From positions 1-35,003 of the forward strand of contig NZ_QNFZ01001063.1 of NCBI RefSeq assembly GCF_003313395.1: DNA of 35,003 nucleotides, read 5' to 3'. The first letter of the stretch is position 1. Each line of letters starts with the position of its first letter. This DNA comes from Nonomuraea lactucae (lineage in GTDB: Bacteria; Actinomycetota; Actinomycetes; Streptosporangiales; Streptosporangiaceae). Under the pieces are notes generated by a model. It was not told where the DNA came from and made no database searches. It saw only the letters and a list, made by a program, of their open reading frames with translations. A program made the translations under genes and the position numbers. Below are positions 2,432 through 31,660 of the stretch, one piece after another.

Positions 2432-5290
2432 TTATTGCTTCCAGACCCAGTACATGACTCGATAGCTGACGCCCGGCGCGCCGCCGGTCGTGGAGAACCC
2501 GAACCCTCCATCCGACCGCGACGACACCGTCACGCCATGCGGGCCGAAGACGTTGAACATCGTCGCGGTGATCAACGGCGTGCCTCCGACGAAGGTGAAC
2601 CCATAGCCAATGGACCCTGTGGTCCCTGCCGGGAACTCAGCCTCGCCTCGCGTGAACGCACCGATAGCGCCGGGGTTGCCCATCTTGCCGAGGAAGTCCA
2701 GCCATCCGTCCCGCTTGACCAGCAGTCCGCTGTGGGCCTGGTTGTTTCCATCGGCGATCGTGAACTCCGCCGTTTCGTGGGAGAGCTGGATGACGCCCTT
2801 ACGACCGTTGACGACGGCGGATCCCATCTGGATCGAATCCTGCAACGCCACGTTCGCGGTGATGTAGTGGTACTGACCCGTGGGCTCGTAAAAGCGGATC
2901 TCCGGGTCCACACCGAAGGATGGGTTGATCACCAAGCGGGGGCCACTCAAGCCTGACTGGATACGGCCCACGATGTCGAACTCGCCCGCGGCGGTGTTCA
3001 GGTTCGCCATCTGCTCGCCGCTGCTGTTGTAGGCGCGCAGCCCGGTCGTGTCCAGTTGGATGCGCGCCCCGCTCAGGGCTGATTGCAGCGAGAACTGCCC
3101 GTTCGCCGAGTCGATGCGCACAGTGCGGGTGCCGGCCGGGGAGTACGCCTCCAGCCCACCCGGTCCGAGCTGAACCCGGGCGCCAGCCGCCGCGGTGCGC
3201 AGGATGGCGCCGGTGATGGTCTTGCCGTCGATCGCCGTCGCGGTGAGCCTGCCCGCATCCACCGACCCGGCCGCCAGCTTGTCGAGCGTGACCGCGTTGG
3301 CCTGAAGGTGTCCGGTGTTGATCGCGAGCGCCTGAACGAGGTTCCCGGTGATCGTGTTAGCGATCACCTTGTCGGCCGCGTTCACGGTCCCGTCCACGAT
3401 GTTCGCGCCGGAAATGACCTTGCCAATCACGTCGGTGTTCACCAGCGGCTGTGTGGCGATCGTCATCACGCCGGACCGGGCGGACTGGTTGCCGGACCGG
3501 TCAAGGGCGGTGAGCCAGATCTCGCGATCCGAGCCGTACGGCTGGCCGCCGATCACGGCCACGCCCGCGCCCTGGAGGTAGTCCACGACCTGCGTGCTCC
3601 CGACTGCGGCCGGGTCGCGCATCCACACCAGGACGCGGTCGAAGTCGGGCGGCATCGCCTCCCCGGCCGAGCCGAGCCCGTCCCACGACACGTGGATCAC
3701 GCCCAACCGCGACATCAGCGCCGGCGCCGAGGGCACCGGCGGGGGGCTGGTGTCGTCGGGGACGAGCACAATGATCTGCCCGGAGAACTCACCTCGCACG
3801 GCGTCGGCGACGGCGCGCACTTTGAACGCGTGCTCGACGTTGACCCGCAGCGGCGAGTAGGTCGCGGTCGCATCCTCCACGACCGCGATCTGATGCCAGA
3901 TGCCGCCCACGTTGTTCTCACGGGCGAACAGTTCGTAGGCGTCCACCTCGATGGCGATGCCCGAAGGGTCGGCGACGACCGGTGTCCAGGTGGCAGTGAT
4001 CTGACCGCGGGCGGTGCCGGACTCGTCGATGTACGCCTGCGCATCCACGATCAAGCCTTGTGGTGTGGCGGGAGCCCGGCCGCCCGGCTCCGGCGCGGGT
4101 GTTCCTCCGGTCCCTCCGGAGCCGACACCCCCGGCGAGGATCCCGGCCGCCTGGCGAGCGAGCCGGATCTCGCGTTCGATGAACCGGTCGTTCAACACGA
4201 GGTTGCCGGAGATCGAGCCGTCCTTGTCCACGGCGAGGGTGACCTGGCGCACCCGGAGCGGCTGCATCTGGCCGCCATCGCCGGGGGCCTTGATGACGTC
4301 GCCCGGCCGATAGTGCGCCAGCGGCAACCAGCGGGCGGCCTCGACGCGGATACCGCGCGTGATCTGGGCTCGCTCGCGGCTCGCGCGCTCAAGCGCGTTC
4401 TGTCCGAGGAGGACAGCGGTGCCCTGGTCGCTGATGCCGCCCTGCGACTGGGTGGTTTCCCAACGGCCCCACGGGGCGACCGCGCTGGGGTTGGTGACCT
4501 CGACGGCCAGGCCCTTCTCCCCGCGTACGAGGATCGCGGTCGCGAAGTCCTCTAAGGTCGCGGTGTCGGGGGCTTCGTCGATGTCGCGGCCGAGCCGCAG
4601 ATCGACCGGGCCGGCGCCGGCGCCGGGCTGGCGGCCCAGGACGGTGCCCTCCCGGTACACGCGCAGTCTGCGGCCGGTCATGGTCCAGTCGAGCACGCCC
4701 TGCTCGCTGAGGTTGATCAGGAGGGTGAGTAGGTCGATGCCGGGCTCGATCTCGACCGCGAGCTTCTTGTTGCCGTCCCACGCTTGCCCGGCGCTGTCGT
4801 GCGTGGAGGTGAAGTCGATCGTGAGGCCCGGCAGCGCACCGCGCGCCTGGCCCTCCAGGACGAGAGTGCGCAGCAACGCGCCCGGCGTGACCGCCGAGAA
4901 CTGGCGCTTGCCCTCGGCCATGACGCCACCCGTGTACATGATCAGCTTGCGGAGTTGCCAGCTGTAGGCGGGGCACTCGTACGTGCGTGTCCCGGCCCGG
5001 TCGGTGGCGTCGGCGCCGCGTTTGATCCGGATGAACCGGCCGCCATCCGGTTCCACCCACGCTCCGCCGGCGACCGCGTACTCGACGGCGATCTCGACGG
5101 GCTGCTCCAGCCAGGCCGCGCCGACCCCGGCCGTGGGGTAGGTGAGCTTCAGGCTGGGCACGTCGTTGAGCGGCAGGCCGACCTCGAACCCGAGGTGATG
5201 CGGCAGCGTGCCGCGCCGCCCCCCATTGGGAGCGTACGCGACCAGCCGAAGGCCGTACGGCGCAGGCGTGCCAGGGATGATGACCTGCAC
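2432..5290 (-). CDS. large tail-tip / receptor-binding minor tail protein
   Basis: A 952-residue structural protein. Residues about 1-385 form a tail-associated domain paralogous to the shorter gene at 6907-8049; shared landmarks are LRLVAYAPNG, RGALPGLT, PWGRWE, YRPGD, QPLRVRQVTL and NLVLNDRF. A Gly/Pro linker (about 390-410) leads to a region resembling fibronectin-III domains (about 410-610), a helical segment with heptad-like spacing (about 630-690) and a beta-rich C-terminus, consistent with a trimeric host-binding tip. The GTG at 5290 is chosen because GGAGG lies 4 nt upstream and because the truncated copy at 6861 starts at the same GTG CAG GTC ATC ATC codons; an in-frame GTG at 5353 has no ribosome site. 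Receptor specificity cannot be read from sequence. Confidence 0.85.
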   Translation of the reverse strand: MQVIIPGTPAPYGLRLVAYAPNGGRRGTLPHHLGFEVGLPLNDVPSLKLTYPTAGVGAAWLEQPVEIAVEYAVAGGAWVEPDGGRFIRIKRGADATDRAGTRTYECPAYSWQLRKLIMYTGGVMAEGKRQFSAVTPGALLRTLVLEGQARGALPGLTIDFTSTHDSAGQAWDGNKKLAVEIEPGIDLLTLLINLSEQGVLDWTMTGRRLRVYREGTVLGRQPGAGAGPVDLRLGRDIDEAPDTATLEDFATAILVRGEKGLAVEVTNPSAVAPWGRWETTQSQGGISDQGTAVLLGQNALERASRERAQITRGIRVEAARWLPLAHYRPGDVIKAPGDGGQMQPLRVRQVTLAVDKDGSISGNLVLNDRFIEREIRLARQAAGILAGGVGSGGTGGTPAPEPGGRAPATPQGLIVDAQAYIDESGTARGQITATWTPVVADPSGIAIEVDAYELFARENNVGGIWHQIAVVEDATATYSPLRVNVEHAFKVRAVADAVRGEFSGQIIVLVPDDTSPPPVPSAPALMSRLGVIHVSWDGLGSAGEAMPPDFDRVLVWMRDPAAVGSTQVVDYLQGAGVAVIGGQPYGSDREIWLTALDRSGNQSARSGVMTIATQPLVNTDVIGKVISGANIVDGTVNAADKVIANTITGNLVQALAINTGHLQANAVTLDKLAAGSVDAGRLTATAIDGKTITGAILRTAAAGARVQLGPGGLEAYSPAGTRTVRIDSANGQFSLQSALSGARIQLDTTGLRAYNSSGEQMANLNTAAGEFDIVGRIQSGLSGPRLVINPSFGVDPEIRFYEPTGQYHYITANVALQDSIQMGSAVVNGRKGVIQLSHETAEFTIADGNNQAHSGLLVKRDGWLDFLGKMGNPGAIGAFTRGEAEFPAGTTGSIGYGFTFVGGTPLITATMFNVFGPHGVTVSSRSDGGFGFSTTGGAPGVSYRVMYWVWKQ

Positions 5291-5385
5291 GAGTCCTCCA
5301 GGAGAGGCAGTCGGGATCGTCGCGTGCGGTAACGGTTGAGGCACTACTGCCACCAGCTATCCAGGGCAGAGGGTGCAATAGGGCC

Positions 5386-6759
5386 ATGTCTGCCAGGCAG
5401 CCCCGGCCACCAGCTCGGCAGGTGATCGCAGCGGCGACCACGTCTAAAGCACGCCGCATGGCCAGAGCCGCAGCACGAGCCTCTCCCCCGGCCGCGCCAC
5501 CTTCCGCACGCCCGACGAGGCGATGGATACAGCGGCTCCTCTGGCTAATCCCCGTCCTAGTGGGGATCGCTTGGACCGCCGTCGCCGCGACCAACGAGGC
5601 CATTCCGGACTGGGGGCGATGGACCCTGGCCGGTATCGCCCTGGCGGGAATCGCCATCCTCGGCATCGCCGTGCTGGTCGGGCCAGCCGCGCGCCGCCTG
5701 GCCGGGGAACGCCACCCGCTCACCAAGGCCGAGCGTCAGCAGATGACCGCCACAGAACGCGTCGAGGCCGTCAACGCCGCCCGCCACACCCTGATCCAAG
5801 CCGCTACTGGGCTGGTCGTCATTGGAGGCGTGGTCTTCACCGCGCAGGGCTTGTGGTACACAGCGCAATCACTCGACGCCTCCCGGCAGGCCCAGCGGAC
5901 CGCCGAGCAGGGGCAGATCACCGACCGGTATACGAAGGCCGTGGAACAGCTCGGCTCCACCAAAGTGGATGTCCGGCTCGGCGGCATGTACGCCCTCGAA
6001 CGGCTCGCGCAAGACTCGCCCCGCGACCGCCAGACCGTATATGACGTGCTGGCTGCGTTCGTTCATGAGCACGATCCGAAACTCGGCGTCAAAGCGAAGG
6101 GCCTACCTGGCGTGCCTGCCACCGATGTGCAGGCAGCCTTGACGGTGATCGGCCGTCGAAACGCTGCCCCAGACACACGTGCGCCCGACCTGAACTCGAT
6201 CCGTACCCCAGGTGCGAACCTGACCTATGCGAAACTGACCGACTCGAAGTTGACCAGCGCGATCCTGACCAGCGCGAACTTGTACGGCGCGTACTTGAGC
6301 TACGCGGACCTCACCGGCGCGAATCTGGTCTTCGCGAACCTGGCCGAGGCAACGCTGACCGACGCGAACCTGGACGGTGCGGACCTGACCCGGGCGACCC
6401 TTTTCAGCGCGGACCTGAGCCGCGCGGGCCTGAGCTACGCGGACCTCACCGGCGCGAATCTGGTCTTCGCGAACCTGGCCGACGCTATCCTGGCCGACGC
6501 GAACCTGCGCCGCGCTACCCTGGTCGACGCGAACCTGCGCGGCGCCAACCTGCGCGGCGCCAACCTGCGCGGCGCTTACCTGGGCGGCGCCAACCTGCGC
6601 GGCGCTAACATAATCGACGCGAATCTGCGCGGCGCTTACCTGGGCGGCGCAGATCTGACCGGTGCAGAGCTGATCGGCGCCGACCTGACCGACATACGCG
6701 GAGTTGCAGAGAGCGAGATCAGACGCGTAGCCACCGTCGATAAGACCACGATCTTCTGA
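5386..6759 (+). CDS. pentapeptide-repeat membrane protein, inserted accessory gene
   Basis: A 457-residue protein transcribed against the surrounding tail operon. A basic Ala/Pro-rich N-terminus is followed by three hydrophobic segments (about 50-68, 79-99 and 137-156), a soluble helical domain (about 165-262; includes ITDRYTKAVEQLGS and LGGMYALERLA), and some 35 tandem A(D/N)Lxx-type pentapeptides (about 265-440). Proteins with this layout occur in actinomycete chromosomes; their function is not established. Pentapeptide repeats form a right-handed quadrilateral beta-helix that in some families mimics DNA or binds proteins. Its orientation and the duplicated tail-gene starts on both sides mark it as an insertion, possibly a lysogenic-conversion gene. 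The ATG at 5386 has only a weak GGG-type ribosome site. Confidence 0.88.
   Translation: MSARQPRPPARQVIAAATTSKARRMARAAARASPPAAPPSARPTRRWIQRLLWLIPVLVGIAWTAVAATNEAIPDWGRWTLAGIALAGIAILGIAVLVGPAARRLAGERHPLTKAERQQMTATERVEAVNAARHTLIQAATGLVVIGGVVFTAQGLWYTAQSLDASRQAQRTAEQGQITDRYTKAVEQLGSTKVDVRLGGMYALERLAQDSPRDRQTVYDVLAAFVHEHDPKLGVKAKGLPGVPATDVQAALTVIGRRNAAPDTRAPDLNSIRTPGANLTYAKLTDSKLTSAILTSANLYGAYLSYADLTGANLVFANLAEATLTDANLDGADLTRATLFSADLSRAGLSYADLTGANLVFANLADAILADANLRRATLVDANLRGANLRGANLRGAYLGGANLRGANIIDANLRGAYLGGADLTGAELIGADLTDIRGVAESEIRRVATVDKTTIF
6296..6482 (+). repeat. 52-nt perfect direct repeat inside the pentapeptide-repeat gene
   Basis: Positions 6296-6347 and 6431-6482 are identical and offset by 135 nt, that is 45 codons or nine pentapeptides. 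Neighbouring pentapeptides are only loosely similar at the DNA level, so this points to a recent in-frame duplication of part of the beta-helix. Confidence 0.85.
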
Positions 6760-6774
6760 TTGAATGCACCGCCC

Positions 6775-6861
6775 CTACGGGCCGATCCGGTCGCCGTTCG
6801 GCGCGTAGGCGACGAGCCGGAGCGCGTACCGCTGACCCTGGCCCGCGATGATGACCTGCAC
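6775..6861 (-). pseudogene. truncated third copy of the tail-tip gene 5' end (28 codons)
   Basis: A GTG at 6861, preceded by a GGGGGA ribosome site, opens a 28-codon frame ending in TAG at 6775. Its product, with landmarks VQVIIAG and ALRLVAYAPNG, closely matches the first ~28 residues of the large tail-tip protein (VQVIIPG, GLRLVAYAPNG) and resembles the start of the 380-residue paralog. It ends 15 nt from the stop of the oppositely oriented pentapeptide gene. It is best read as a fragment left when the tail gene was duplicated and interrupted. It may still be translated as a short peptide within the late message. Confidence 0.8.
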
Positions 6862-6906
6862 TGATCCCCCGATATGTCTCTGAATCCATGGACGCAAGCG
6901 AGGGGG

Positions 6907-8049
6907 TCAGGGCCGCGCCGCCAACGCGGCGAGCAGCCGCGCCATCCGCAGGTCGTGGTCCTCGAACCGGTCCCCCAGGACAAGGTTTCCGACGACCACG
7001 CCGCGCACGGTCCGGCTCAACGTGACCTGCCGGATCCGCAGCGGCTGGGGGGCGCCGGCGTTGCCCAGGGCCAGGATCAGGTCGCCGGGCCGATAGTCCC
7101 GCAGCGGCAGCCACTGCGCCTCCGCCGTGGTGATCTCGCGTGTGCGCTGCACCCGCTCAGTTGTGGCCGTCACCAGTGCAGCCGTGCCAGCCGTGTGCGC
7201 CGACCCGCTGTCGGTAAGGCCGGGCTGTCGCATGCCGATTTCCCATCGACCCCACGGCAGCGGGGTACCGACGTTGACTACCTCCTGGCGGACTTCGCCG
7301 TCGCCGACCACGTACGCGGCCGACGCCATGTCCTTCAAAGTGCCGACGTCGGGCGCGGCCCTGATGTCGCAGCCACCGTGCAGGATGACCGGGAAGGAGC
7401 CCATGGTCCGGTCGCGTAGCACGCCAGTGTTCGGCTTCCACGCGGAAAGCTGCCGGGCGCCGCTCAGGCGGAAGTCGAGCAGCCCGAACTCGACCAGCTT
7501 CAGCAGAACCGATAGCAGGTCGGTGCCGAGCGGGATGCCCATGCCCATGAACGGCGACCAGGACGCGGCGGCCGTATCGATGCTGCTGGTGAACGTCCAC
7601 GTCAGGCCGTTAAGTGCGCCGCGGGATTGGGCTTCGGTCATCAGCGTGTGCAGTATGAAGCCGCCTGTCGCCGACGAGCTGAACATCCGCTGTTGGTTGA
7701 CCGGCGCGATGGTCGCGTGCGGGTAGACGACCGCCTTCCTCAAGGTCCACAAGTAGGACGGACAATCGAACCGCCACACGGCTGCGGGGTCGAGCTGGTC
7801 GCCGACACGGTGGAGCAGCAGGAATCGGCCCTCGGGGTACTCCGTCCAGGTGTTGCCGTCAACCGTCCACTGCACGCCGATTTCGCATGATGTAGCGATT
7901 AACTCAGCGCCGACCGCGTGCGCACTGTAGGCGAACTTCAGGGCAGGGAGGTCATTTAGCGACCAGGCGACCTCGATGCTAAGGGGGTGCGGAAGCAGAC
8001 CGCGGCGGGCGCCGTTGGGGTCATAGGCCACGAGACGGAGGTCGAACAT
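6907..8049 (-). CDS. minor tail protein, short paralog of the tail-tip protein
   Basis: A 380-residue paralog of the N-terminal domain of the 952-residue tail-tip protein, lacking its linker, Fn3-like and C-terminal beta-rich parts. Aligned landmarks include LRLVAYDPNGARRG, RGALNGLT, PWGRWE, YRPGD, QPLRIRQVTL and NLVLGDRF. It follows the distal tail gene, the usual place of the tail-hub or tail-associated protein, so it may form the structural hub while the longer paralog carries host-binding extensions; that split is inference. The ATG at 8049 has GGAGG 5 nt upstream; an in-frame ATG at 8061 would place that ribosome site inside the gene. The roughly 225-nt upstream gap (8050-8274) shows no gene I can support. 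Confidence 0.85.
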   Translation of the reverse strand: MFDLRLVAYDPNGARRGLLPHPLSIEVAWSLNDLPALKFAYSAHAVGAELIATSCEIGVQWTVDGNTWTEYPEGRFLLLHRVGDQLDPAAVWRFDCPSYLWTLRKAVVYPHATIAPVNQQRMFSSSATGGFILHTLMTEAQSRGALNGLTWTFTSSIDTAAASWSPFMGMGIPLGTDLLSVLLKLVEFGLLDFRLSGARQLSAWKPNTGVLRDRTMGSFPVILHGGCDIRAAPDVGTLKDMASAAYVVGDGEVRQEVVNVGTPLPWGRWEIGMRQPGLTDSGSAHTAGTAALVTATTERVQRTREITTAEAQWLPLRDYRPGDLILALGNAGAPQPLRIRQVTLSRTVRGVVVGNLVLGDRFEDHDLRMARLLAALAARP

Positions 8050-8274
8050 GAAGACCTCCATCTATCTCGCAGATGCCTTAGCCACCTGTTTCTTCGACGG
8101 GGAGCATCCAGCCGTGTACGCAACGCGAGGTATCTTCGAGCATGTGGGTGCGATGAGCGGGATGCGAGGTTCGACTTGCCATCTTGATCGATAGTCGAAG
8201 CGTGCCGAGGGCCGGTCGTGGTGTTGGTGCTGAAGCACAGACCATCCATGCCCCTCAACGTGTCCCCTTCGGGG

Positions 8275-9156
8275 TCAAAGGTAGGCGCGGCGGGCTCGGA
8301 CTTCGATCTTCGACGCCGGGGTTGTACCGGTCGCGGTGCACGAGAGAAGCACGGCGCGGGAGAACGGATCCCCCACGGCCATCGCCGGTGTCAGGTGGAT
8401 CCACCGCGACGCAGAGCCAGGCCCGAACACGCTGATCATGCCGGTCTTGTCCGCGCCCGTCGCGAGATCCCACGTGTCCGTGATGACCACCGCGGCGCGC
8501 ATCGTTGCCGCGTCGATCAGCAGCCGCTCCGACGCCGTGATGGAGTTCGCTCCTGAGGTGAGCAGGCCGACCGCGCCCTGCGTGGCCACGTCCCGCAGGG
8601 TGATGTTCGTGGCCGGCCCTGTGACGCGCAGGAGCGCGTCCGTGATGGGCGCGGTTGAGCTGGCGAGCGTGGTGACCGACTGGTTGGAGGCGTTCGCGTT
8701 GCCCTGCCAAGTCGTCACCGTCTCATCGCGCCAGTAGACGCCCGGCACCTCGACGATCGCGGTCAGCTTGGCCCGCGCGGCTCCGGTGTTGACCTCCGGT
8801 TCGCTCGCGGCCGTCACCGTCACGTCGGCCACACGGACGATGCTGCCCGCCTGGTAGCGCAGGCTCATGAGGCGATGCCGGACGCCGAGCAGCGCGCCCA
8901 GTGCCTCCAGGTTGGCCTCCATCTGCGGGTAGCCGCCGTCCGTCCCGGCTGGGGTCGCGCCGGTAACGGTGAAGACCAGCGGGAAACTGGTCGTCTCGTG
9001 GTCGAGGCCCGTGATGGGCAGCTCGCCAGCCCGGCCGGGGACGGTCACCCTGACGGCCCGTGCCCCCGGCAGCGGCCGGCGCTGCGTGCCCTTCTTCAGC
9101 CGCCAGCAGCCTGCTGGGTGGTCCAGCGGGACGCCGTCGAGCGTGTAGGACGGCAT
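8275..9156 (-). CDS. distal tail protein (Dit-like, siphovirus tail component)
   Basis: A 293-residue protein directly after the tape measure gene, the standard position of the distal tail protein that joins the tail tube to the tip complex. It starts with a short beta-rich region (YTLDGVPLDHPAGCW), continues with a domain containing RAVRVTVPGRAGELP and PLVFTVTGATPAGTDGG, and ends in a jelly-roll-like beta-rich half. This resembles actinophage proteins annotated as phage tail family or Dit. It starts 2 nt after the tape measure stop. The stop is followed by a small CCCC-GAA-GGGG hairpin and then a gap, so transcription may be modulated here. Confidence 0.8.
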   Translation of the reverse strand: MPSYTLDGVPLDHPAGCWRLKKGTQRRPLPGARAVRVTVPGRAGELPITGLDHETTSFPLVFTVTGATPAGTDGGYPQMEANLEALGALLGVRHRLMSLRYQAGSIVRVADVTVTAASEPEVNTGAARAKLTAIVEVPGVYWRDETVTTWQGNANASNQSVTTLASSTAPITDALLRVTGPATNITLRDVATQGAVGLLTSGANSITASERLLIDAATMRAAVVITDTWDLATGADKTGMISVFGPGSASRWIHLTPAMAVGDPFSRAVLLSCTATGTTPASKIEVRARRAYL

Positions 9157-9158
9157 GG

Positions 9159-11411
9159 TCAGATCACCCCCAGGGCGCCGGCGAGCTGGAGTCCGCGGTT
9201 GACGCTGGTCGAGGTCGGCTCACTTTGCGGGTAGTAGTTCGTCTGGTGGATGACGGTCCTCGCGTTGGCCAGGCCGCCGCCTGCCAGCCCGTTCGGCACG
9301 TTGACCCCGGGAGTGCCGAGGTCTGGGATTCCGGTGCTGGCCACGATGCCCGCCATGCGGTTTGCGGCGATTCGGACGAGTCCTCCGGCCTGGGTGATGC
9401 CGAGGGCGAGTCCGGCCGGCACCTGGCGGCCGATCTTCATGAACAGGCGGCTGGGGCTGTGGATGCCGAGGAAGTCGAGCACGGGCTGCGGCAGGATGGA
9501 GCGGAGGAAGCCTACGATCCGATCCTTGATCATGTTTCCGGCTGCGACGATGCCGTCCCACAAGCCCTCCATCAGCGCGCGTCCGGCGTTCATGATCGTG
9601 TCTCCGAAGCCCTTGATCGCCGACACGATCGACTGGAACGCGCCTCGGAAGTCACCGTTCAGTAGCTGGACCACAGCTGTGATGATCTTGATCCAGAGCG
9701 GCAGATGCGCCGTCGCGATCTCGACCAAAGGTCCGATGATTGGCTGAATCACACCAAGGATCTTGGAAAGTTCGCCGACCCAGGAGGTGATCACGGGGAT
9801 CAGGGCCTTGACCAGCTCCAACGTGGACGGGAGCAGATCCATCGCCAGTTTGATCAAGGGCGGAAGGACTGTTTTCAGCGCTTGTGCGAGGAATTGGCCG
9901 ATCTGTGCCGCGAGTGGTGCCGTGGCCGCCGCGAGCTGCGTCACCGCGCTAGACAAAATCGGAATAATGGGCTGCAAGCTGGACGAAAGCACTGAAGTCA
10001 CCGGGCCGAGTGCGGCCGACAGGTTGGTCAGCGCGGCACCCAGGATCTGACCCAGGATCCCGGCAAGCTGCCCGATCACTGGCAGCAGCGGAGCCGCTGC
10101 GGCCAGCACCGCCGAGATCCCCTGACCCAGCGCGAGCAGCCCCGCCTGAAGCCCCGGGTCCGCGAACGCGCGCGACAGCATCTCCGCGACCAGCGTCAGC
10201 CCAGGACCAAGCGCCGCCAGCGCTGGACCGAGCGCCGAGACCGCGGCGGCCAGCCCAGGACCCAGCGCAACCGCGATGGCCGCGACATGTGGCGCGATGA
10301 GCGCCAGCGATCCACCGAGCGCCACGAAGATCGGCATCAGGACACTTCCAACCTGCGCCAGCGATTGGAAGATCGTGATGAGGATCTGCTGACCCTGAGC
10401 CGAGTTGACGAACGCGTTCACTTGGCCGAGCAGTTGCCCGATCACGCCGAGCGCGCCGATCCCGCCCGTCTGCATCGCGGCGAAAACACCCCGCACGATG
10501 CCGATCACGTCCCCGGCGATCTGGCCGAGCTGGCGGAACACTGACACGGCGCCCTCCAACCAGGCCAGTGCCTGGCCGGAGGCCGCCGCGTGATACAGGA
10601 ACCGGCCAAACTTCTCGGCCGCGTCGGCGAGCCCCGGCGCAAGGCCAGCCAAGAACCCTGCGCCGATCACGCCTACGTCCCGCAGCCCGTCCAGCAGAGG
10701 CCGCAGCGCGGGCGTGAACGCCGACACCGCCTCACGCAGCGAGGCGAACACTGACTGGACAGCCCAGACGGTCTCGCTGGACTGGGCAAACCTCGCCACC
10801 TCAAGGGTTGCGAGTCCGAGTGCGCCGGCCACGCCGGACATGCCGGTGCTCAACGGCCCCAGGAGCGCGCCCGCGACCGCCTCGATCTGCCCAGCCAGCG
10901 GCGAGAAGAAGGCGTCCTGCACCGATACCCGCAGCTGACGGATCGGGTTGTAAAGATCGTTAAGGGCGAAGGCGGCTGCGCTGGCGGCCGGGCTCAGATC
11001 GGCAACGGCTTCAAGGAACGCCTCGTAGTCCCCTGACAGCGCGGCCGAGAACGCCTCACCCACACCTGCGGTCGCGACCTTGAAGGTGGCCATGGCCGCT
11101 GCGCCCATGGCCAAGGCTCCGGGCAGCGCAGTCACGATCCCCGACGCCGGGGCGAGCGCGGCCACCAAAGCGCCGCCGCCCTGCGCGAGCGTCGCCACGC
11201 CGGATGCTGCCGCCGAGGCCGCAACCGAAAGCGCCATGAAACGGACGCCGAGCGTGGCCGAGCTGGCCATCAACTCGCCGGCGTTGGCCTTGGAATCTCT
11301 GGCCTTGTCGCGGAAGAAGTCCAGGGCTCGCCGGAGTCCAGACGTCATCTTGTCGCGCAAGTCGAGCGTCGCGAACAGCTCGCCCACGTTCAGCGCCACG
11401 CCCGCCACCAC
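9159..11411 (-). CDS. tape measure protein
   Basis: A 750-residue protein, by far the most hydrophobic and Ala/Gly/Leu-rich of the late genes, with long helical stretches throughout. Near the C-terminus it carries the characteristic tape-measure segment GIHSPSRLFMKIGRQVPAG, followed by glycine-rich sequence. It follows the frameshifted tail-chaperone genes, as expected in siphoviruses. It sets tail length and is ejected with the DNA. At roughly 1.5 angstrom per residue this length would predict a tail of about 110 nm. The start is GTG at 11411; GTG GTG in tandem makes the exact codon ambiguous, with a GGAGAG ribosome site immediately upstream. Confidence 0.95.
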   Translation of the reverse strand: MVAGVALNVGELFATLDLRDKMTSGLRRALDFFRDKARDSKANAGELMASSATLGVRFMALSVAASAAASGVATLAQGGGALVAALAPASGIVTALPGALAMGAAAMATFKVATAGVGEAFSAALSGDYEAFLEAVADLSPAASAAAFALNDLYNPIRQLRVSVQDAFFSPLAGQIEAVAGALLGPLSTGMSGVAGALGLATLEVARFAQSSETVWAVQSVFASLREAVSAFTPALRPLLDGLRDVGVIGAGFLAGLAPGLADAAEKFGRFLYHAAASGQALAWLEGAVSVFRQLGQIAGDVIGIVRGVFAAMQTGGIGALGVIGQLLGQVNAFVNSAQGQQILITIFQSLAQVGSVLMPIFVALGGSLALIAPHVAAIAVALGPGLAAAVSALGPALAALGPGLTLVAEMLSRAFADPGLQAGLLALGQGISAVLAAAAPLLPVIGQLAGILGQILGAALTNLSAALGPVTSVLSSSLQPIIPILSSAVTQLAAATAPLAAQIGQFLAQALKTVLPPLIKLAMDLLPSTLELVKALIPVITSWVGELSKILGVIQPIIGPLVEIATAHLPLWIKIITAVVQLLNGDFRGAFQSIVSAIKGFGDTIMNAGRALMEGLWDGIVAAGNMIKDRIVGFLRSILPQPVLDFLGIHSPSRLFMKIGRQVPAGLALGITQAGGLVRIAANRMAGIVASTGIPDLGTPGVNVPNGLAGGGLANARTVIHQTNYYPQSEPTSTSVNRGLQLAGALGVI

Positions 11412-29295: not shown

Positions 29296-29517
29296 GTGAG
29301 TCAGTCGTTCGTCGCCGCGGTGCAGGAGCGAGCGGCCCGCGCGTGGGCCGCTCTGGATGCCGCACGCCACGACGGCGATGCCGATCAGGTGCTGCTGGCC
29401 GAAGCGGACTGGGAGGACGTGCAGCGCTTCGCACGACGCCATGGCGTCCAGATCGGCTCGCCGGCCGAGGTGCCCGGCGAAGGGGGCGCCGATCGGGTGG
29501 ATGGGCAGGCGTGGTGA
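29296..29517 (+). CDS. small protein upstream of ArsR regulator
   Basis: A 73-residue helical, acidic protein (QSFVAAVQERAARAWAALDA, VLLAEADWEDVQRFARRHGV), not recognised. GTG 29296 has an AGGAGG site 4 nt upstream and the stop overlaps the ArsR GTG as GTGA, giving translational coupling. Its position between operator and regulator suggests a role in the operon's control or in transporter function, but that is inference. Confidence 0.6.
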   Translation: MSQSFVAAVQERAARAWAALDAARHDGDADQVLLAEADWEDVQRFARRHGVQIGSPAEVPGEGGADRVDGQAW

Positions 29518-29882
29518 ACTCCGTTCCCTTGTATGAGGCCAAGGCCGAACTGTTTCGGCTGCTGGGCCACCCGGTGCGGATCCGGGTGCTGGAGCTGCTG
29601 CAGAACGAACCCATGCCGGTCCGGGATTTGTTGGCCGCTATCGAGGTTGAGGCGACCGGGTTGTCTCAGCACCTGGCCGTGTTGCGGCGCTCGGGCATGG
29701 TCAGCGCGCATCGCGACGGCTCCACAGTGGTCTACAGCCTGTCCGGCGGGGATGTGGCCGAGCTGCTGCGCGCCGCCCGCCAGTTGCTCACCCACAAGTT
29801 GGCGGGCCAGCATGAGCTGCTCGATGAGCTGCTGAAGGCGCAGGCCGGTTCGGCAACTGGTTCGGGGGCTGGCGCGTTGTGA
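29514..29882 (+). CDS. ArsR-family winged-helix repressor without cysteines
   Basis: A 122-residue ArsR-type regulator: YEAKAELFRLLGHPVRIRVL opens the fold, followed by PVRDLLAAIEVEATGLSQHL (recognition helix) and the wing HRDGSTVVYSL. Notably it contains no cysteine, so the classical metal-thiolate sensor sites of ArsR/CadC/BigR are absent; a His/Glu pair lies in the last helix (LTHKLAGQHELLDELL). It probably represses the operon from the palindrome at 29237-29252. GTG 29514 gives a 4-nt overlap with the previous gene; GTG 29511 is an alternative. Confidence 0.88.
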   Translation: MNSVPLYEAKAELFRLLGHPVRIRVLELLQNEPMPVRDLLAAIEVEATGLSQHLAVLRRSGMVSAHRDGSTVVYSLSGGDVAELLRAARQLLTHKLAGQHELLDELLKAQAGSATGSGAGAL

Positions 29883-31660
29883 GCTCCGTAGTGTCCTCGG
29901 GCTGGGCCCGTATGCGTTCGGTGCTGCCCGAACGCGACAAGCTGGCCGCGATGGGCCGTCATCCCCGCCGGGATCTGCTGGCCGGGTTGACGGTGGCGAT
30001 CGTGGCGTTGCCGCTGGCGCTGGGATTCGGTATCTCCTCGGGGATGGGCGCGGCGGCGGGCCTGGCCACCGCGGTGATCGCGGGCGCGCTGGCCGCCGCC
30101 TTCGGCGGGTCCGGGCTGCAGGTATCCGGGCCGACCGGGGCGATGACCGTGGTGCTGGTGCCGATCGTGCACACCTACGGCGCCTCGGGGGTGCTAACGG
30201 TCGGGATGCTGGCCGGGCTGATGCTGATCGCGTTGGCGCTGGCCCGGGCGGGCCGGTATATGGCGCTGGTGCCCGCGCCGGTGGTGGAGGGTTTCACTCT
30301 CGGCATCGCCTGTGTCATCGCGCTGCAGCAGATCCCGTCCGCGCTCGGCGTGCCGATCCCTGACGGCGACCGGGTACTGGTGGTGGCCTGGCACGCCGTG
30401 CAAACCTTCCTGGCCGAGCCGTCTTGGTGGGCGCCGGTGATCACGCTGGCGGTGACCGGGCTGATGCTGGCCGGTGCCCGCTGGCGGCCCACCGTGCCGT
30501 TCTCGCTGCTTGCGGTGGTGGCCGTCACCGTGGTGACAGAGCTGACCCAGGCGCCGCTGACCCGGATCGGCGCGTTGCCCGCCGGGCTGCCCGCACCGTC
30601 ACTGGCCTTCCTCGATGTAGCGGCACTCGGCTCGCTGCTGGCCCCCGCTGTGGCCGTGGCTGCGCTGGCCGCGCTGGAGTCGCTGCTGTCGGCGGCGGTG
30701 GCCGATGGCATGAGCGTCAGCCACAAGCACGATGCGGACCGCGAGCTGTTCGGCCAGGGGCTGGCCAACCTGTTCACCCCGTTGTTCGGTGGCGTGCCGG
30801 CCACCGGCGCCATCGCTCGCACCGCGGTCAACGTGCGTTCCGGCGCCACCTCCCGGCTGGCCGCGTTCGCCCACGCCGCGATCCTCGCCGTGATCGTCTA
30901 CCTGGGGGCCGGTTTGGTCGCCCGCATCCCGCTGGCCGCGCTGGCCGGGGTGTTGCTGGCCACCGCTGTGCGGATGGTCGAGGTCGGCTCGGTCAAGGCG
31001 ATGGCTCGCGCCACCCGCGGCGACGCGATCGTGCTGGCGCTGACGGCGCTGGCCACGCTGGCCTTGGATCTGGTCCAGGCGGTCATCCTCGGGCTGATCG
31101 TGGCCGGCGCGCTGGCGTTGCGCGCCATCGCGCGCAACGTCCGCCTGGATGAGACCCCGATCCGCGCCGATCTGCCGGGGGATCACACCGAGCAGGAGCA
31201 CGCGCTGCTGGCCGAGCACATCGTCGCCTACCGGCTGGACGGCCCGCTGTTCTTCGCCGCCGCCCACCGCTTCTTGCTGGAGCTGTCGGAGGTTGCCGCC
31301 GTCTCCGTGGTGATCTTGCGGATGTCGCGTGTCACCACCGTCGACGCCAGCGGCGCGCTCATCCTGGGCGATGCCATCATCCGGCTGGAACGCCGCGGGA
31401 TCACCGTGTACGTCTCCGGCATCCGCGATGGCCACCACCAGGCATTGCACGCCCTGGGCGTGATCGCCCGGCTCGATGCGGCCGGGCACGTGTTCGCCTC
31501 CACCCCCGAGGCCATCACCGCCGCCCGTGACCACATGTGTCATCACGGAATGCTGCCAGACACCCCCGGCCTTCCTTCCGACACCGTGCCACCACGCAAC
31601 CCGTTACGGGAAAGAGGTGTTCCAGGTGAAGACGCGGTCGCCTCGCCCGGCCGCCCATAG
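29879..31660 (+). CDS. SulP-family anion transporter with C-terminal STAS domain
   Basis: A 593-residue integral membrane protein. The membrane part (about 25-430) has the SulP landmarks DLLAGLTVAIVALPLALGFG, GGSGLQVSGPTGAMTVV and FTLGIACVIALQQIPSALG, with ten or more hydrophobic helices. The C-terminal cytoplasmic region (about 450-560) is a STAS domain with the strand/helix core VVILRMSRVTTVDASGALIL. SulP proteins move sulfate, bicarbonate or related anions; substrate is undetermined here. GTG 29879 overlaps the ArsR stop as GTGA. Expected to be derepressed when the ArsR ligand appears. Confidence 0.92.
   Translation: MSSVVSSGWARMRSVLPERDKLAAMGRHPRRDLLAGLTVAIVALPLALGFGISSGMGAAAGLATAVIAGALAAAFGGSGLQVSGPTGAMTVVLVPIVHTYGASGVLTVGMLAGLMLIALALARAGRYMALVPAPVVEGFTLGIACVIALQQIPSALGVPIPDGDRVLVVAWHAVQTFLAEPSWWAPVITLAVTGLMLAGARWRPTVPFSLLAVVAVTVVTELTQAPLTRIGALPAGLPAPSLAFLDVAALGSLLAPAVAVAALAALESLLSAAVADGMSVSHKHDADRELFGQGLANLFTPLFGGVPATGAIARTAVNVRSGATSRLAAFAHAAILAVIVYLGAGLVARIPLAALAGVLLATAVRMVEVGSVKAMARATRGDAIVLALTALATLALDLVQAVILGLIVAGALALRAIARNVRLDETPIRADLPGDHTEQEHALLAEHIVAYRLDGPLFFAAAHRFLLELSEVAAVSVVILRMSRVTTVDASGALILGDAIIRLERRGITVYVSGIRDGHHQALHALGVIARLDAAGHVFASTPEAITAARDHMCHHGMLPDTPGLPSDTVPPRNPLRERGVPGEDAVASPGRP

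Follow-up and report, generated by a model that had tools for sequence, protein, structure and literature searches.

A pentapeptide-repeat gene between two tail genes of a Nonomuraea prophage, with a candidate recombination scar

Related systems and layout of the locus

HK97 gp15, a phage moron, reportedly provides superinfection exclusion. Tab of phage JBD26 is a moron in the late operon that confers phage resistance, as described in the available part of PMC10884400. The gene studied here is like phage morons in being an accessory gene that lies between late genes and is missing from close relatives, and unlike them in that it is encoded on the opposite strand and specifies a predicted membrane pentapeptide-repeat protein. 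Pentapeptide-repeat proteins (PF00805; Alr5209, HetL, Qnr, MfpA) share its C-terminal repeats, but the protein described below adds a membrane domain at its N terminus, which is conserved across a family of Nonomuraea proteins.

Two further systems concern how such a gene might arrive. Homology-facilitated illegitimate recombination (HFIR) has a homologous crossover at one end and an illegitimate join at the other, mostly at micro-homology of 3-10 bp (PMC3240628, available part). The exchange proposed here is likewise homologous at one end and illegitimate at the other; however, the available part of PMC3240628 deals with natural transformation and conjugation, whereas our case is read from a prophage mosaic and its relic is an old gene start. 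In Vibrio T6SS arrays, a homology-anchored module displaces part of a resident gene and a relic remains, and the authors propose an HFIR-like mechanism for this effector-module displacement (PMC5361080, available part). In that account the relic is an orphan immunity gene, whereas here it is a 28-codon tail-gene start. The present case is covered by these known kinds, a moron together with HFIR, and no paper was recognised as concerning this site, judged from titles and abstract openings.

The window, meaning the whole 35,003-nt stretch of DNA that was analysed, is one complete contig (IMGVR_UViG_2838843591_000003; G000:C769) of an 8.67-Mb draft assembly of Nonomuraea lactucae in 1068 contigs. 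The contig encodes a tape measure protein, portal, terminase, endolysin and integrase, and it is therefore taken to be a tailed-phage prophage. The features around the site are as follows.

2432..5290, minus strand: intact long tail gene, 952 aa (phrog_31834 tail protein, 2.5e-26)
5291..5385: spacer from the intact tail start to the pentapeptide start, with blocks around TAACGGTTG and TGCAAT..ATG
5386..6759, plus strand: pentapeptide-repeat protein gene, 457 aa (PF00805, 5.3e-47)
6760..6774: spacer of 15 nt between the stub stop and the pentapeptide stop
6775..6861, minus strand: 28-codon stub of a long-tail-gene start, ending in TAG
6862..6906: spacer of 45 nt between the short paralog's stop and the stub
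6907..8049, minus strand: short upstream tail paralog, 380 aa (384 aa from 8061)
8275..9156, minus strand: gene adjoining the tape measure gene, of distal-tail type by position only and without a family match
9159..11411, minus strand: tail tape measure protein gene (phrog_6090, 1.1e-56)

Elsewhere in the window, positions 29346-31660 of the plus strand hold an ArsR-type regulator frame followed by a frame that by eye resembles a SulP-type transporter, flanked by phage genes and the integrase.

The plus-strand pentapeptide gene lies between two copies of the same minus-strand tail-gene start, as an earlier note on this DNA had claimed. The stub begins GTG CAG GTC ATC ATC and comprises 28 sense codons (VQVIIAGQGQRYALRLVAYAPNGDRIGP) followed by TAG; the intact gene opens at 5290 with the same five codons (an in-frame GTG upstream, at 5353, would extend it to 973 aa), and LRLVAYAPNG is encoded in both, so the shared start described in that note is present in the sequence. 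The note also listed a third, longer paralog. This short paralog does start at 8049 with ATG (or at 8061) and is longer than the stub, but the intact gene is far longer still, and the shared five codons are missing from the paralog's start. It is 45% identical in amino acid sequence to the N-terminal domain of the intact tail gene.

A repeat search found the two starts as a single ungapped direct repeat, 5207-5299 against 6778-6870, with 71% identity over 93 nt. At this level of identity the two copies have diverged too far to be a fresh target-site duplication. When tail-gene N-termini were compared by tblastn with 38 gap sequences, the stub was matched with E 2.6e-9 (a value for that small set), and the best query was the tail gene of G042:C14, not the window's own; the resemblance thus exceeds what chance would give. 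As a test for a recurrent mechanism, these 38 gaps around tail paralogs were searched for remnants of gene starts and ends, and a stub of this kind was present in the window's gap alone; the joins of G005 and G042:C217, which lie outside the 38, were read directly from sequence. An antisense tblastn match in the gap of locus L161 (E 0.003) was taken as chance.

States of the site in related prophages

Of 198 genomes, 31 have a match to the short paralog and 40 to the long tail gene; within the genus, 25 of 55 genomes match the long gene's N domain (the window's genome counted in each case). Many tail loci differ in architecture, with two full-length paralogs or a single paralog. In 11 loci a short paralog precedes the site, as in the window, and of these G005 and G042:C217 are fragmentary. 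The site is empty in 5 of the 11, holds the pentapeptide gene in 5, and holds another gene in 1 (G007, whose 838-nt junction has a 267-aa ORF with hydrophobic stretches in the tail-gene direction). In the 5 loci that hold it, the pentapeptide gene is inserted between two tail genes that are adjacent in relatives, the arrangement expected of a moron. Empty, occupied and scarred states of the site are all found within one bacterial genus.

Five loci have the empty site (G042:C14, G041, G043, G036 and IMGVR_UViG_2933096044), with 13-20 nt between the paralogs, against 45 nt between short paralog and stub in the window, and neither stub nor insert. The earlier note had asked whether uninterrupted relatives carry one tail gene and no pentapeptide gene; the pentapeptide gene is indeed missing at this site, but all five have two tail genes. 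Since both paralogs abut in these five loci without insert or stub, both are ancestral. The pentapeptide gene is best explained as a moron that occupies the junction of these two tail genes in a group of Nonomuraea siphoprophages.

The occupied sites (window, G004, G054, G005 and G042:C217) all have the pentapeptide gene on the strand opposite to the tail genes. The last four lack the stub; for G042:C217 this holds for the left side only, since no long-gene start is seen on the right and that side is not assessable. In G005 a damaged long-gene start is still readable beside the pentapeptide gene. Three of these loci (G054, G005 and G042:C217) are decayed, with tail genes that are broken or fragmentary and a pentapeptide frame that is open. 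Since four loci hold the same insert at the same site without a stub, duplication is unnecessary for entry. The long tail gene in the decayed locus of G054 (L074, about 6930-9274) breaks off some 58 codons in, and an open frame that by eye looks YD/Rhs-like comes next.

The upstream tail gene ends differently in loci with and without the insert. It ends in ..MSIRP in all four stub-free pentapeptide loci, and an orphan pentapeptide copy in G014 retains a remnant of this type of ending (IAGMSIKP). Endings of the insert-free loci, read by eye from the sequences, are ..LSARP (G042:C14, G036), ..LAHRP (G041), ..LARRP (G043) and ..LAARP (UViG_2933096044). The window's short paralog ends in AALAARP, which is the insert-free type as in UViG_2933096044 and is close to the AALSARP of G042:C14 and G036. 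The upstream gene's stop lies 11-15 nt from the pentapeptide stop in the four ..MSIRP loci; the stub's TAG lies 15 nt from it in the window, and the upstream gene's stop position spans the same 11-15 nt in five other loci. Moreover, the end of the stub, ATC GGC CCG TAG, aligns codon for codon with ATC AGA CCN TAG in the pentapeptide-bearing type.

Proposed origin of the insert and the stub

We favor, with a probability of roughly three in four, a reading of these comparisons in which the cassette was exchanged in by a homologous crossover on one side and an illegitimate join on the other, leaving the stub as a scar. The junction would have been empty in the window's ancestor. A pentapeptide-bearing relative would then have supplied a segment made up of the pentapeptide gene, the spacer upstream of it and ~170-230 nt from the start of the relative's own long tail gene. 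In this exchange the homologous crossover would have fallen inside the long tail gene. On the illegitimate side, the break in the recipient's tail gene would lie near codon 26, and a short GATC-type match would mark the point where it was joined to the final codons of the upstream tail gene from the donor. The donor's start would take over from the recipient's, the old start persisting as the stub, and the tail gene would have remained whole because the donor's start replaced the old one. A single exchange with its steps in this order could have left all of these traces. On this account the window would be a readable case of a phage gaining an accessory gene beside a tail gene that is kept, with an incoming piece that supplies its own start, and the stub would be a fossil of ordinary phage gene swapping.

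Most likely the stub was once the start of the recipient's own long tail gene, and the TAG that closes it probably served the upstream tail gene of the donor as its stop. The left join would directly precede this TAG, where there is a GATC-type match and 7 of the 10 bases before the TAG agree with the donor-type gene end (chance 0.002, for a place chosen afterwards). Identity of the stub is 76-77% to G042:C14, G036 and UViG_2933096044, 68-72% to G041, G043, G007, G004 and G054, and 71% to the window's intact start. The window's two starts differ by 29% and lean to different relatives, which fits the import of the second start. In G042, contigs C14, C97, C165, C281 and C217 carry four tail-module copies and a decayed one that keeps the pentapeptide gene, so that a single cell can contain both the donor and the recipient type.

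The intact long gene changes its affinity along its length. Over its first 87 columns it is 70% identical to G042 and G036, against 79% between those two. The first 180 columns are 72-73% identical to G036 and G042, 76% to UViG_2933096044 and 74-82% to the others (G004 74%; best G054, 82%, 144/175), and the part of this tract from column 87 on reaches 88% to G054 (77/88). Over columns 200-1160 identity is 83% to G042 and 80% to G036, which are 79% identical to each other, and 75-76% to G041, G043, G007 and G004. We also counted informative columns, in which G042 equals G036, the four others agree and the two groups differ, dropping columns in which the window has neither state and those past nt 1150. 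Recipient-type and donor-type sites number 1 and 5 up to nt 102, and 38 and 11 between that point and nt 1150. Fisher's test gives p = 0.006 with the cut placed at 120 to 200, and 0.06 and 0.09 with the cut at nt 220 and 240, the cut being chosen post hoc. Of the 8 parent pairings analysed with MaxChi, 6 have their break within columns 166-234, one of these without significance (p 0.18). All four pairings with G042 as a parent break there (uncorrected p = 0.18, 0.007, 0.0055 and 0.012); with G036 as a parent, two of four break at 166-210 (uncorrected p 0.04 and 0.03) and two near 1091-1124. This similarity switch inside the long tail gene is what a homologous crossover on one side, as in HFIR, would leave, with modest support. 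The intact gene from about 5056-5124 to 5290 looks donor-derived and the part that follows looks recipient-derived.

Several observations speak against a mosaic. The stub and the donor tract are both short, and the stub's 4 informative sites split evenly, 2 of recipient type and 2 of donor type. UViG_2933096044, with its recipient-type ending, is closer to the window in the first 180 columns than is G004 (76% against 74%), and beyond column 200 it is 71% identical both to the window and to the other type. The window's whole short paralog is 60-61% identical to the recipient type and 62-64% to the other type. No donor with near-identical sequence was found among the relatives compared. Given the contrary affinities of the short paralog and UViG_2933096044, we hold the window to be a two-parent mosaic as likely, not proven.

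The earlier note read the bracketing starts as the footprint of an accessory gene that entered a tail operon without loss of the tail gene, and the stub fits such an entry. Its proposed route has the tail start duplicated in the lineage, the pentapeptide gene inserted between the two and the copy upstream worn down to the stub; in our judgment this is unlikely. The direct repeat around the insert and the frequency of tail paralogs in these phages would agree with it, but identity between the copies is only 71%, their closest affinities are with different relatives, and four loci have the insert at this site without a second start. Loci with three tail starts and no insert, which the note held would speak against it, were not found (0 of 5 insert-free loci); this same lack of a third start in insert-free relatives is at odds with a duplication that preceded the insert. 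The other such observation it named, an insert elsewhere without flanking duplication, is made by G031:C695 and G028. Somewhat less probable again is an ancestor with three tail genes that lost the middle one, the stub being the residue of that third gene. Paralogs do multiply in this group, and two full-length copies are present in G039, G008, G033 and others; however, no locus with three starts occurs among those mapped, and the stub's stop has the same spacing as the upstream gene's stop in other pentapeptide loci, which suggests a joint and not gradual decay.

A mobile element, transposon-like or integrase-driven, that carried the pentapeptide gene and duplicated its target could also leave a direct repeat around the insert. 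We consider it very improbable: one long pentapeptide ORF fills the insert (with overlapping ORFs on the opposite strand), the sister insertions have no repeats, and the repeats here are 71% identical over 93 nt, unlike the short identical direct repeats of such elements. Hardly credible at all is an assembly artefact that fused two co-resident prophages. The draft genome of 1068 contigs would allow for one, but the assembly's only two matches to the short paralog both lie within the window. The IMG/VR record gives no independent support, since it is probably the same assembly. The exchange with one homologous and one illegitimate end accordingly remains our preferred reading.

The pentapeptide-repeat protein and other cargo

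The product of the pentapeptide gene (PENTAPEPTIDE) has a conserved N domain, with hydrophobic stretches near aa 48-70, 77-107 and 135-154, followed by PF00805 repeats that score 157.4 bits against a Pfam gathering cut-off of 20.2, placing it in that family. It falls under the curated cut-offs of all 18 NCBIfam models listed; the closest is the Alr5209 family (110 of 125 bits), and Qnr (46.5 of 240 bits) and MfpA (49.2 of 360 bits) are not reached. As a candidate member of a known defence or resistance family it was rejected, with no match above cut-off in NCBIfam and 0 families matching in PADLOC 2.0.0 (E 0.05). Phage records matching the protein number 437, of which 0 cover 80%, and the best 20 of the 437 all lie within residues 260-457, the repeats. 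The N domain of the tail gene, for its part, is matched by 12 phage records at 25-36%.

The pentapeptide N domain is matched in 50 of the 55 genomes of the genus, mostly distantly, and eight places, the window's included, show 73-100% amino acid identity over nearly the whole domain. In G031:C695 and G028, the 15 and 18 kb examined around the copies contain none of this phage's tail genes. Phage-borne and orphan copies have about 60-95 nt upstream in common, and blocks in this stretch, including those around TAACGGTTG and TGCAAT..ATG, are partly conserved in the 8 copies. This shared sequence suggests that the pentapeptide unit may carry its own control region; no match to a sigma-70-type promoter or a terminator was found for the gene. 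Among the 28 possible pairs, pN/pS was computed for 13, and the values for the N domain, 0.22-0.39, fit purifying selection. The frame is open both in decayed prophages and as an orphan, and its persistence while the surrounding prophages decay points to a use for the host. A tentative reading is that the gene encodes a membrane protein which is made in the lysogen and serves the host, perhaps by countering other phages. Where the gene lies, its membrane domain and its persistence would lead us to guess at a host benefit, which may be phage exclusion.

The junction before the first tail paralog is also variable. Among 24 loci it measures 9-27 nt in 4, 65 nt in one fragmentary locus, 195-229 nt in 3 (window included) and 702-2830 nt in 16. 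One of these junctions, in G033:C10 (L157, 3958-4845, minus), holds an opposite-strand gene for an AbiTii-domain protein (PF18864 1.8e-29, PADLOC 8e-33). Six more cargo proteins were searched against Pfam without a match; the searches covered part of the ORFs in these gaps (further ones lie, for example, in G029, G038 and G042:C281). It is possible, although doubtful, that the tail-paralog junctions are a docking site for host-protective cargo with the adjoining tail gene as the homology anchor. If so, cargo and the tail-gene 5' end would move jointly between phages, and the cargo would include the pentapeptide membrane protein, the AbiTii-type protein and other membrane proteins.

At this position the window has a 225-nt gap without an obvious gene (8050-8274). 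In relatives that share the window's architecture the gap is 19-27 nt or about 700-780 nt; in G039 and G024, whose architecture differs, it is 195 and 215 nt. The window's gap may be a remnant of other cargo. Upstream of a decayed long tail gene in G030 (L158) we also observed a frame related to the pentapeptide N domain (5382-6488, 53% over 59 aa) and a 167-aa ORF (6538-7041), neither with a Pfam match; together they may represent a separate occupation of a site of this kind.
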